Shown here one piece after another: positions 27,402-36,023 of a DNA stretch of 64,000 bases. A program made the position numbers and the translations under genes. Position 1 is the first letter of the stretch, and each line of letters starts with the position of its first letter. The notes beneath the pieces are model-generated. The model worked only from the letters and a program-made list of their open reading frames with translations. It did no database searches and was not told where the DNA came from. The DNA lies in the NCBI GenBank assembly GCA_026414975.1, contig JAOAHZ010000008.1, forward strand, positions 1 to 64,000, written 5' to 3'. This stretch comes from Bacteroidia bacterium. GTDB taxonomy: Bacteria; Bacteroidota; Bacteroidia; SpSt-205.

Positions 27402-27474
27402 GCGGGAGTAGCTCAGCTGGTAGAGCGTCAGCTTCCCAAGCTGAAGGTCGCGGGTTCGAAACCCGTCTCCCGCT
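27402..27474 (+). tRNA. tRNA-Gly (anticodon CCC)
   Basis: 73-nt canonical cloverleaf: acceptor GCGGGAG/CTCCCGC, D arm GCTC/GAGC, anticodon stem TCAGC/GCTGA with loop TTCCCAA (anticodon CCC), T arm GCGGG-TTCGAAA-CCCGT. Discriminator T, no encoded CCA. It reads GGG codons. Confidence 0.96.
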
Positions 27475-27508
27475 CAATAACCTAAGCCTCTTCGCCAGTG
27501 CGTTTATC

Positions 27509-31640: not shown

Positions 31641-32864
31641 CTATCCCGCCAATCTCAAGGGAGCCAAGCGAGCTCTTACCATTTCCTCCGTAACCTCTAC
31701 ATGCGCTCCGGAAGGGCGCTGATACAAAACATCCTCCAGCACCGTCTCCATCAGACTGCGCAAGGCCCGAGCCCCTGTGCCAAGGGATAAAGCCTCTTGG
31801 GCGATAAGTCTCAGAGCACCTTCCGTAAAGCTGAGTGTTATGTTATCCCAGGCGAGAAGCTGTTGGTACTGCTTCACCAGGGCGTGGCGCGGCTCAGTAA
31901 GGATGCGAAAAAGCGCTGTCTCATCCAACGGCTCCATCGCCGCAATCACAGGCAAGCGTCCTACAAACTCAGGTATCAACCCAAATCGCCGCAAATCTTC
32001 GGGCTGGACGTACGCATAGAGCGATTCTGAGGGGCTCTCGGCCAGCTCCCTTCTGCGAAAGCCTATGGTCTGCTTGGAGAGACGCCGAGCAATAATCTTA
32101 TCCAGTCCTTCAAAGGCTCCCCCACAAATGAAAAGAATATTTTCCGTATTGACTGGAATAAAGCTTTGCTCAGGATGTTTTCGTCCACCTTTTGGCGGCA
32201 CATTAGCAACCGTACCTTCTAAGAGCTTCAGTAGAGCTTGCTGAACTCCCTCGCCCCCCACATCTCGTGTCAGGGAAGGATTTTCAGATTTTCGGGCTAT
32301 CTTATCAATTTCGTCAATATAGACGATACCTATCTGAGCAGATTCCACATCGTATTCAGCAGCTTGGAGAAGCCTCACTAAAACATTCTCTACGTCTTCC
32401 CCTACATATCCAGCTTCGGTTAGAGTCGTCGCATCGGCGATAGCAAAAGGGACTTTGAGATACTCAGCGATGGTACGAGCTATGAGGGTTTTGCCTGTTC
32501 CCGTAGGACCGATGAGGAGGACATTGCTCTTTTCTACGCGGACGGCGGGGGATGACTCTCTTTTTTCTAGCAAGGAAGCGATTCGCCGATAGTGGTTATA
32601 AACGGCGATAGCTATCTTACGCTTAGCGGATTCTTGGCCGATGATATACTCGTCCAAATGAGCTTTGATCTGAGCGGGAGAGGTAGGAGGCATTTTCCAT
32701 CCTCGCAAACGGCGACTGCGGCGCAGCTCTTGACTAGCAGCCTCATGGATGTGGGTAGCGCAGTCTATACATATGAATGCCTCTCGGATGGGAGACTGTA
32801 CTAAAGGCACTTGCCCACCTGAGCGACCACAGAAATCGCATGAGGGTGCTTTAGCGCTGTCCAT
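31641..32864 (-). CDS. clpX: ATP-dependent Clp protease ATP-binding subunit ClpX
   Basis: 407 residues from the ATG at 32864; the frame opens earlier at 32900 but the family start fits [13 protein letters not shown]. Zinc-binding N-domain with CDFC and CIDC pairs (about 9-40), Walker A GPTGTGKT (about 120), Walker [11 protein letters not shown], and the substrate-loop region ending with TGARALRS. It unfolds tagged proteins for ClpP. Its start overlaps the clpP end by 14 bases; it is last in the tRNA-tig-clpP-clpX unit. Confidence 0.96.
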
Positions 32865-33558
32865 CGCCAGCAAAGAGCTTCGTCGGACGAAGCACCTCAT
32901 CTACCAAGCCATACGCCTGAGCTTCATCGGCTCGCATCCAGTAGTCTCGGTCGGAGTCTTTCCAGATTTTCTCATAAGGCTGACCTGTATGAAAAGCCAA
33001 GATTTCGTACAACTCCCGCTTGATCTTTTGTATCTCGGCATGTACGATTTCTATATCAGAGGCTTGTCCTTGGACGCCTCCTAAGGGCTGATGTATCATG
33101 ACTCGGGCGTGAGGCAGGGCAGCTCGCTTGCCTTTAGTTCCCGCTGCCAAAAGCACCGCGGCCATAGAAGCCGCCATACCCGTGCAGATGGTATTGACAT
33201 CGGGGCGCACATACTGCATCACATCGTAGATACTTAACCCATCATAAACAGAGCCTCCCGGCGAGTTGATATAAATAAAAATATCTCGCTTTGGGTCAGC
33301 CGACTCCAAGAATAGAAGCTGAGCATTGACAATATTGGCAATTTGGCCATCTATAGGATACCCAAGGAAAATGATCCTATCCATCATAAGCCGAGAAAAA
33401 ACATCCATGACAGCGATATTGAGCTGCCTTTCTTCGATGATATTGGGGGTTAGATTGTAAAAGGAGCTACGCAGTCGGGCCTCGTACTGGTCTATGCGCA
33501 GACTTTCTATCCCCAGATGACGCACAGCATAACGGCGAAACTCGTCTTGAGGTGTCAT
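32851..33558 (-). CDS. clpP: ATP-dependent Clp protease proteolytic subunit
   Basis: 235-residue serine peptidase. Catalytic Ser131 in GMAASMAA and His156 in VMIHQPLGG are clear, with [12 protein letters not shown] for substrate binding. The N-terminal 40 residues before the usual start of the mature protein are somewhat longer than in E. coli and may be a propeptide. The start overlaps the tig stop by four bases (ATGA), and the end overlaps clpX. Confidence 0.96.
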
Positions 33559-34889
33559 AGGGTGTAAAGTAAAATCAATTTTAGAGGGAGTAAGTGTTCC
33601 GTTGGTTCCCCAAACTTTTCCTTCAGAAAGGTCTCTAACCGCTGCAGCTGGAGACCCCGACGAAGGCTACTCTCGTTTCTCTCTAACAAACTGGCGATAA
33701 ACTTATCTCTGGCAGCTTCAGACTCCCTGAGAAGGCTTAGAAACTTTTGCGATTCTTCGGATATATCGCCCACCTTTTGAATATTCTCCCATATAGTCTC
33801 CTGAAGCTCCGCCTGACTCACCTGAAGAGCAGGCTCCGTAGCTACGAGATTTTGAAACAAGAGCTCCCAGGCTAATTCCTGCTGAAACTCTGTGTAATCT
33901 AACCTCTCGCCATTAGCCTGCGAACGAGAAGCCAGGTAGAGAATGTATAAGTACTGAGCAATATCAGAAGGAATGGTTATGTCTGCGGCATGGAGAAGAC
34001 GATTTTTTAGAAGGCGACCATTGAGGTCTCGTAAGGCTTTATGGACATGGTGATGGAGGAGTTTCTGCCACTGCTCCTGAGGTGCAAAGTCTGGGTTTTC
34101 GTGGAAGTGCAGCTTCTCCTCTGACGCTTCTAAAGAGAGCGGGATAGCTGAGGCAGCAGCCGTCAGAGTCAGCTTAGTCTCCTCAGCAGTAATAGGCGAG
34201 TACTCTGGATAGTAGACGCGAATGTACTCTATGTAAGAACTCAGAACTTGGGGTGGAACTTCAAATGTGTCGCCCACCTTATGCCCTGCCAAGTACCGCC
34301 AAGGGAAAGGCTCTATAAACGAATTCCATCTCAGTTGGAGAGGTATGCCCCCTTCCTTCGGTTTCCAGAGAAGATGCAGGAGAACAAATCGATCGGCAGG
34401 AAAAAACTCGGGTAGCACTTCCAGCTTTTCCAGGCGCCCGAGAATAATCTGGATATAACGCTGAAAGATGCTCAAGTCATCGGGGGCCTCTTGATAGGCA
34501 TAACGCACGAGGGATACTGGTTTCTGAATAAGGGCTTCTTGAGCTACAACCAGAGCTCGGAAAGTGTAGACGTAGTCCGCCAAAGGAGGCTTAACTTGAT
34601 AGGTTTCGGGCGTGCGCTGATGAAGCGGATACTGAAAGAGCTGCTTATCTCCCAGAAGCTCCTTGAGGGCCTTCATAAATCTATCGGCAAGCAGTTGAGA
34701 CAAAACCTCCTCGCCATAGCGCCCCATGATGACATCGCTGGGCACCTGACCCGGACGAAAGCCAGGCAAGGTCAGCTCTCGTCGCAGCTCTCGGATTCTA
34801 TGCCTATACGCTTCGGCATAAGCCGAAGCGGGAATATGGATAGTTCCTTCGGCTAAGTATGGCTTAGGGAAGTGGATGGAGGATTCCAA
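33555..34889 (-). CDS. tig: Trigger factor, ribosome-associated chaperone
   Basis: 444 residues. The N-terminal ribosome-binding domain has the signature [10 protein letters not shown] (about 39-48); the C-terminal chaperone part is helical. The middle region does not show a clear FKBP-type prolyl isomerase motif, so that domain is divergent or degenerate. The only start that keeps the N-domain complete is TTG at 34889; no ATG occurs until well after the signature. This TTG is just 1 base beyond the 3' end of tRNA-Leu, so tRNA 3' processing would give an almost leaderless mRNA. It overlaps clpP by four bases. Confidence 0.88.
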
Positions 34890-34890
34890 G

Positions 34891-34972
34891 TGCGGATGGA
34901 GGGACTCGAACCCTCAACCCCAGAGGGACCAGATCCTAAGTCTGGCGCGTCTGCCAATTCCGCCACATCCGC
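34891..34972 (-). tRNA. tRNA-Leu (anticodon TAG)
   Basis: 82-nt class II tRNA on the minus strand: acceptor GCGGATG/CATCCGC, anticodon stem CCAGA/TCTGG with loop CTTAGGA (anticodon TAG), a long variable arm TCCCTCTGGGGTTGA, T arm GAGGG-TTCGAGT-CCCTC, discriminator A. No encoded CCA. It lies 3 bases after tRNA-Arg and 1 base before the tig start codon. Confidence 0.96.
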
Positions 34973-34975
34973 CTA

Positions 34976-35048
34976 TGGCACCGGCGGGACTCGAACCCAC
35001 ATTTGGAGTTTAGGAAACTCCCGTTCTATCCAGTTGAACTACGGCGCC
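34976..35048 (-). tRNA. tRNA-Arg (anticodon CCT)
   Basis: 73-nt cloverleaf on the minus strand: acceptor GGCGCCG/CGGTGCC (one G-U), anticodon stem GGAGT/ACTCC with loop TTCCTAA (anticodon CCT, reads AGG), T loop TTCGAGT, discriminator A. It is the first gene after the palindromic promoter. Confidence 0.95.
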
Positions 35049-35064
35049 TACCTTTGCAAAGGTA
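35049..35064. promoter_or_regulatory. Palindromic two-way promoter, TACCTTTG joined to its complement
   Basis: TACCTTTGCAAAGGTA is a perfect 16-bp palindrome formed by two opposed -7 boxes. The plus-strand box (35049-35056) serves the oxygenase gene whose ATG starts at 35064, inside the palindrome's last base. The minus-strand box (35057-35064) serves tRNA-Arg, whose 5' end is the next base after the palindrome. Confidence 0.7.
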
Positions 35065-36023
35065 TGGAAAACCTGCCACTTTTAGACCTGAGGCAGTTTC
35101 AGGAAGGCGATTTTAAGCAGAAGTGGCACTTTGTAGAGGCCTTAGGAGCGGCCTTCTCGGAGATTGGGTTCGTACTGATTGAGCACCACCTTGTTTCCCC
35201 CGCCCTCCAACAAGCGATGTATGAGAAGGTTCAGCAGTTTTTCGCCTTACCTGCAGAGGTAAAGGCCCAGTACATCATCCCGGGCACAGCAGGTCAGCGA
35301 GGCTACACCCCGCCTAATCAAGAACACGCTAAAGGTCATTCCGTTCCAGATCTCAAAGAATTCTTTCACATCGGACCCGAGATCGAGGACCCTACCGACC
35401 CCCTATACGAGCGACTGCCTCGGAATGTATGGGTCAAGGAGATACCAGGCTTCCGAGAAACCTTTCTGTCAGCTTATGCGAAGTTTATGGAGACGGGACG
35501 CTATCTCCTGCGAGCTATAGCTTTGTATCTTGGATTAGAAGAGGGATATTTTGATGAGCTTATTAGGAATGGGCCGAGCTTGCTGCGCCTGCTTCATTAC
35601 TATCCCCTTTCCGAAGGGATACCCATTCCAGAGGGAGCTACTCGCGCCGCCGAGCATGAAGACATCAACCTTATCACCCTCCTTATCGGCGCCAGCGCAG
35701 AAGGGTTAGAAGTGCTTACACGAGAGGGACACTGGCTTGCTCCGAAAGTAGAACCCCACCAGATGGTCATTAATGTGGGGGACATGCTCCAGCGCCTCAC
35801 TAATAATAAGCTGCGGAGTACCACCCACCGCGTCACCTTGCCTCCACCTGATAAGCGGCATCTGCCAAGGTATTCTATTCCGTTTTTTCTACACCCCCGC
35901 CCAGAAGTCAGCCTCGCCTGCCTCCCCTCTTGTATAGACGAGCTCCATCCTAAGGCTTACCCCGATGCCACTGCCGAAGAGTACCTTAACGAAAGACTCG
36001 TGGAGCTTGGACTCAAGAAGTAG
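35064..36023 (+). CDS. 2-oxoglutarate/Fe(II)-dependent oxygenase, isopenicillin N synthase-like
   Basis: 319 residues from ATG 35064; the longer frame to 34872 runs across both tRNAs and is not coding. The N-terminal DIOX_N region (about 5-130, LPLLDLRQF and EIGFVLIEHHLV) precedes the double-stranded beta-helix core with iron ligands HEDINL (His and Asp, about 194-196) and His in RSTTHRV (about 253), and the cosubstrate Arg in RYSIPFF. The family oxidises small molecules; the substrate cannot be told and no biosynthetic cluster surrounds it. With only 7 bases between the -7 box and the ATG, the mRNA has almost no leader. Confidence 0.85.
   Translation: MENLPLLDLRQFQEGDFKQKWHFVEALGAAFSEIGFVLIEHHLVSPALQQAMYEKVQQFFALPAEVKAQYIIPGTAGQRGYTPPNQEHAKGHSVPDLKEFFHIGPEIEDPTDPLYERLPRNVWVKEIPGFRETFLSAYAKFMETGRYLLRAIALYLGLEEGYFDELIRNGPSLLRLLHYYPLSEGIPIPEGATRAAEHEDINLITLLIGASAEGLEVLTREGHWLAPKVEPHQMVINVGDMLQRLTNNKLRSTTHRVTLPPPDKRHLPRYSIPFFLHPRPEVSLACLPSCIDELHPKAYPDATAEEYLNERLVELGLKK

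Follow-up and report, generated by a model that had tools for sequence, protein, structure and literature searches.

Protein genes directly behind tRNA genes in a lineage of Bacteroidia with short promoter-to-start distances: a probable case of bacterial tRNA punctuation at the trigger factor locus

The trigger factor gene of a Bacteroidia bacterium (GCA_026414975.1) raises the question of how a messenger RNA is made when its start codon lies one base behind a tRNA. The gene was analyzed in a stretch of 64,000 nucleotides of contig JAOAHZ010000008.1, referred to here as the window. On the minus strand, a -7 box of the TAnnTTTG class, TACCTTTG (35064-35057), is followed by tRNA-Arg(CCT) (34976..35048), which begins 8 nt past the box, and after a spacer of three bases by tRNA-Leu(TAG) (34891..34972). 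Neither tRNA encodes CCA. According to Infernal, tRNA-Leu ends with its discriminator A34891; the end given by ARAGORN takes in C34890 as well. The junction (34887..34890) consists of this C, as a one-base leader, and the TTG with which tig (33555..34889) starts. Downstream on the same strand, clpP (32851..33558) shares 4 bases with the end of tig. The longest ORF of clpX (31641..32900) overlaps clpP, with a second Met near 32864 as another possible start. The coordinates confirm the layout described in a first-pass annotation of this DNA, namely one -7 box, two tRNAs three bases apart and the overlapping genes tig, clpP and clpX. Its statement that no further -7 box lies between tRNA-Leu and tig likewise held for TAnnTTTG.

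The tig product matches Pfam Trigger_N with an E value of 4e-14. The preceding stop in its frame lies inside tRNA-Leu, no ATG, GTG or TTG occurs from this stop to TTG 34889, and the next candidate start is found 40 codons further on. Thus the TTG one base past the discriminator stands as the only workable start, as the annotation had proposed. It is separated from the GFRxGxxP motif by 41 residues, the same distance as at most other Bacteroidia loci, where the codon is usually ATG; the script that picked these starts is biased towards ATG and towards a distance near 44 residues, and its choice was therefore not blind. The family was searched for tig in 12 genomes, the own genome included, and 11 of these gave a match. 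The annotation had suggested looking for the same order and spacing in related genomes, and the tRNA-then-tig order is indeed kept in all 11. The leader after the discriminator measures 1 nt in eight loci, 3 nt in two and 10 nt in one, and is therefore 1-3 nt long in 10/11. It is a single C in L001-L007 and L011 and comprises three bases in L008 and L009. A TTG or GTG is present at the tRNA junction in 10/11 loci, 41 residues ahead of GFRxGxxP in nine of them and 39 in L011. At L007 the script picked an ATG four codons downstream, and the junction TTG is present there as well. The sole family member with a 10-nt spacer, L010 (genome G008), has AGGAGG and an ATG start 39 residues before the motif. 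Since the family's trigger factors share 35-58% identity with the window protein, the recurrence of the junction in 11 genomes is, judged by this divergence, more than chance. In G002, a congener that is 98% complete, no trigger factor match was found at E 0.001.

Outside the family, the motif was read in 18 of the loci L012-L030 (none in L025), and tRNA-Leu(TAG) lies upstream of tig in 11 of these. The gap, measured from ARAGORN's end with the C included, is 16-269 nt in ten and an overlap in one, and several of the L012-L030 spacers contain a terminator-like hairpin by eye. A second set of 79 tig loci includes nine family members, which show the same picture as the family, and three loci (L072, L078, L132) with a tRNA-Leu 103-119 nt upstream. 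No tRNA-Leu was found upstream in 67 loci, most of them with titles such as Bacteroidales, Bacteroidaceae or Prevotella. In one of the 67 a tRNA-Met is located at a distance of 2.6 kb, and in a few the upstream sequence covered is 39-800 bases long. As tRNA-Leu is found upstream of tig outside the family too, at distances down to 16-18 nt, the linkage predates the family, in which the loss of the leader is new. An extreme arrangement occurs in the sister family f2, represented here by one genome (G012, L264 4742-4832), in which tRNA-Leu encodes CCA and the tig ATG begins with the last A of this CCA. Clean maturation of this tRNA would spoil the start codon of tig, so that making of the tRNA and translation of the mRNA could compete.

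The arrangement is not confined to tig. In the own genome (G000), 45 tRNAs were identified with Infernal and grouped into 34 runs. In 13/34 runs a frame on the same strand starts 1-8 nt past the discriminator, in 12 of the 13 at 1-4 nt. The genes concerned are secE, prs, dxr, tig, ligA, those for class 1 FBPase, ribosomal protein L25, DUF2480, an OsmC-like, a TPR/cytochrome-like, a PhoD-like and a 199-aa protein, and a 69-aa frame without family. The complete single-contig genome of a congener (G005) has such starts in 12/34 runs, and its set equals that of G000 except for the 199-aa protein, as compared by eye from the N-terminal residues. In both genomes tRNAs thus directly abut coding sequences. 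The two control genomes from other families, for which, as for G005, the acceptance of frames differed slightly from the G000 survey, harbor no case: 0/39 runs in G052, with the nearest start at 19 nt, and 0/28 in G259, with three runs ending at contig ends and the nearest start at 13 nt. A Fisher test of 25/68 runs (G000 and G005) against 0/39 (G052 alone) gave p 2e-6. Since a dozen other genes have this layout, the tie to tRNA that the annotation had drawn from this locus is not special to protein folding. The base after the discriminator of the last tRNA of each run is C in 32/34 runs of G000. C prevails at this position in G052 and G259 too and is therefore not a trait of this lineage. A class-wide scan for a T-loop pattern followed by ATG proved noisy, and nothing rests on it. 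It yielded 94 matches in the 12 family genomes (mean 7.8; reversed-pattern control 1.25) and a mean of 3.1 (control 0.7) in 47 tallied of 383 other rows (G013-G059, one each for f3-f49). Genomes outside the family scored as high (G035 13, G193 12, G115 11), and 6 matches were found in G052, where the tRNA-by-tRNA survey had no case.

A second junction with TTG is that of dxr. The succession tRNA-Val(CAC), C, TTG is present in 10/10 genomes of the genus with a match, the own genome included (11 searched), and in each a box lies 5-10 nt ahead of tRNA-Val. The TTG of the G000 gene aligns to position 1 of TIGR00243; the match contains one stop in G004 and is in pieces in G007. The congener without a tig match, G002, has dxr in the usual place. 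In G000 and G005 together TTG is the start codon at 5/25 tRNA junctions compared with 9/184 starts led by a box (p 0.016), a comparison of few cases that are related by descent, in which the 184 contain background.

The short leaders of the tRNA-headed genes have a counterpart in the genes led by a box. In a survey of 573 kb of G000 with 410 genes from a simple hexamer caller, in which small overlaps between stretches were kept, TAnnTTTG occurred within 72 nt of the first ATG 104 times, compared with 31 times for the reversed box. Of these boxes 70/104 end 3-9 nt before the ATG, with a peak of 31 at exactly 4 nt, whereas the reversed box does so in 1/31. By the same measure the relatives G005, G009, G003 and G007 have 40/50, 8/13, 5/5 and 6/9, so that the five family genomes total 129/181. 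The three control genomes total 21/93 (G052 6/37, G047 4/22, G259 11/34). Gene calls were crude throughout. Boxes are also found 4-11 nt ahead of the 5' ends of tRNAs, in 31/34 runs of G000 and 28/34 of G005 compared with 9/39 of G052 and 8/28 of G259. The starts led by a box in G000 are ATG in 89, GTG in 31 and TTG in 4 cases (reversed box 1, 6 and 4), and in G005 in 46, 9 and 5 cases (reversed box 1, 2 and 1). Shine-Dalgarno-like 4-mers precede 41/404 starts in G000 and 11/143 in the control G052, so that G000 has no more of them than a relative without the trait. A search for 16S rRNA, intended for the anti-Shine-Dalgarno sequence, gave no RF00177 match in 5 genomes, and its control was positive in just 9/14. 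A sigma-70 scan was set aside as addressing the wrong promoter class. From these distances the lineage looks largely leaderless.

The enzymes of tRNA processing are represented. An RNase Z-like gene of G000 (C57:64963-65853) covers model positions 2-300 with 261.6 bits; matches below the curated cut-off of 292.95 are the case in all 12 family genomes and in 15/21 genomes searched, and the match is split in G007 and weak in G008. RNase P RNA scored above its cut-off in 12/12 family genomes, and on this ground a loss of RNase P, with tRNAs starting near +1, was rejected. Folding of tRNA-Leu together with the start of tig was uninformative, as the predicted fold breaks the tRNA. RNase Z leaves a 5' phosphate on the downstream product. 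We propose that in this family transcription of mRNAs and tRNAs alike would start only a few bases away from the gene product. About one third of the tRNA transcription units would run directly into a protein gene, co-transcribed from the promoter of the tRNA as the sole one visible. RNase Z would cut the precursor right after the discriminator, or one base further on, past the C, and thereby mature the tRNA 3' end. The RNA freed downstream would carry a 5' phosphate 0-8 nt before its start codon, and ribosomes would accept such RNAs as leaderless mRNAs, including those that begin with UUG or GUG. Where leaderless initiation is normal, a tRNA gene set directly ahead of a frame would need nothing more. 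Since most box-led genes of G000 look leaderless, a near-leaderless tig mRNA made by tRNA 3' processing would fit this genome, and expression of tig, clpP and clpX would then be coupled to tRNA synthesis. In E. coli, translation of leaderless mRNAs is reported to require a 5' phosphate, and UUG and GUG to be much less efficient in them than AUG (PMC9031893).

Such compressed transcription starts combined with leaderless mRNAs made by RNase Z, a bacterial form of "tRNA punctuation", are the best explanation of the whole and a likely one. The broader reading has rather more for it than against it: the lineage would largely have given up 5' leaders in mRNA and tRNA, and tRNA 3' maturation would serve as a standing device that makes about a dozen leaderless mRNAs, one-to-one with tRNA, among them those of tig-clpP-clpX, dxr, secE, prs, ligA, FBPase and ribosomal protein L25. 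The weakest point of the mechanism is UUG, as box-led starts are mainly ATG or GTG, yet tig and dxr use TTG. Against it also count the 10-nt leader of L010 with its AGGAGG and ATG, the overlap of CCA and ATG in G012, the linkage at 16-18 nt outside the family, the RNase Z scores under the cut-off and the 21/93 boxes of the controls that are equally close to ATG. All data are DNA, and the named relatives are metagenome-assembled genomes (e.g. Bacteroidia bacterium SKYB95, SKYB116 and KatS3mg025).

Among the alternatives, compaction would explain the tight spacing by itself; ribosomes would translate the precursor uncut or after a cut at another site, and the lack of a leader would be without function. 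The overlaps of tig, clpP and clpX, family genomes of about 1.4-2.3 Mb, a called coding fraction of 0.89 in the congener G005, higher than in the controls, and a linkage of tRNA and gene that predates the family are in line with this reading. However, the coding fraction of G000 is 0.80, compared with 0.81 in G052 and 0.85 in G259 (2.0 Mb), and yet these two controls pooled have a start within 8 nt in 0/67 runs. In addition, a start codon next to a folded acceptor stem would leave no room for the 30S subunit, and the box-led genes share the habit of short leaders, which makes compaction by itself unlikely. A promoter of another type inside the tRNA genes could give tig an mRNA of its own, leader included, and, if dependent on an alternative sigma factor, would escape a scan that covered TAnnTTTG alone. 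We consider this improbable, as TAnnTTTG is absent from the stretch that separates tRNA-Leu from tig and from the tRNA of the 12 other tRNA-gene pairs of G000, and as the layout is found with a variety of tRNAs, which are constrained in sequence. In the 3-9 nt before the starts of these 12 genes, no match to 5/6 or 6/6 of the fixed bases of TAnnTTTG was found either. It is very improbable that the tig start has been misread through an assembly error or use of a later start, because, although TTG is a weak start codon and L007 has a possible ATG four codons on, the layout is repeated in eleven genomes and the next candidate in the window, 40 codons on, lies beyond the stretch ahead of GFRxGxxP that is common to the family.

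Punctuation of transcripts by tRNAs is a textbook feature of animal mitochondria. In bacteria, the tRNA-tufB operon of E. coli is an example of co-transcription of tRNA and a protein gene, which is not known to lie directly at a tRNA 3' end. The mitochondrial scheme, due to Ojala, Montoya and Attardi 1981 as described in PMC10941002, resembles the present one in that protein genes lie directly against tRNAs and the RNAs would be freed through cuts made by RNase P and RNase Z. It differs in that the present case concerns a bacterial genome, about one third of the tRNA runs and many promoters, with a cutting that is predicted. In Thermococcus kodakarensis, tRNA-Lys is reported within the 159-nt 5' UTR of TK0306 (PMC4247193); there, as with tufB, tRNA and protein gene share one transcript, but the gene is not directly at the tRNA 3' end. 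Zheng 2011 (PMC3160421) reported leaderless genes in 1/37 genomes of Bacteroidetes/Chlorobi (2.4%), having sought Pribnow-like signals only and with a warning of misses in Bacteroidetes, and PMC5397173 lists the Bacteroidetes among the groups reported with many leaderless mRNAs. In view of these two reports, the idea of leaderless mRNAs in this phylum is not new. Like the bacterial leaderless mRNAs of PMC3160421, the box-led genes of this lineage have a promoter element so near the start codon that hardly any leader, if any, would be left; here, however, the signal is TAnnTTTG, and tRNA processing would account for some of the leaderless mRNAs. The primary transcriptome of Bacteroides thetaiotaomicron (Ryan 2020, PMC7366714) shows the same TAnnTTTG promoter class with longer leaders, the median 5' UTR being 32 nt and about 3.7% lying under 10 nt. 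The new elements are a signal that runs through the lineage and is tied to TAnnTTTG, together with a set of genes headed by tRNAs. No description of leaderless mRNAs made by tRNA processing in bacteria was found in the literature searched, most subscription papers being outside its reach. If the proposal is true, a punctuation scheme can arise outside organelles with ordinary tRNA-processing enzymes where leaderless initiation has become general, and several housekeeping genes have their output coupled to tRNA synthesis. The system would, in addition, allow leaderless initiation at UUG and GUG to be tested.

Two further features of the window were noted. The -7 box of the tRNAs forms one half of a perfect 16-bp palindrome, TACCTTTGCAAAGGTA (35049..35064), which the first-pass annotation had missed. 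The palindrome consists of two abutting TAnnTTTG boxes, the minus-strand box of the tRNAs (35064-35057) and a plus-strand box (35049-35056) that belongs to a divergent 2OG-Fe(II) dioxygenase-like gene (35064..36023, plus strand), whose ATG 35064 lies 7 nt past its own box. The identical palindrome is present in L002, and L003 has two abutting boxes in an imperfect palindrome. As the pair in the window is the single instance in 464 kb of the genome, abutting boxes were rejected as a general device. Elsewhere in the window, tRNA-Gly(CCC) (27402-27475) and a 669-aa frame 34 nt downstream of it, with no TAnnTTTG box to separate them, perhaps represent a leadered case of the same linkage of tRNA and gene.
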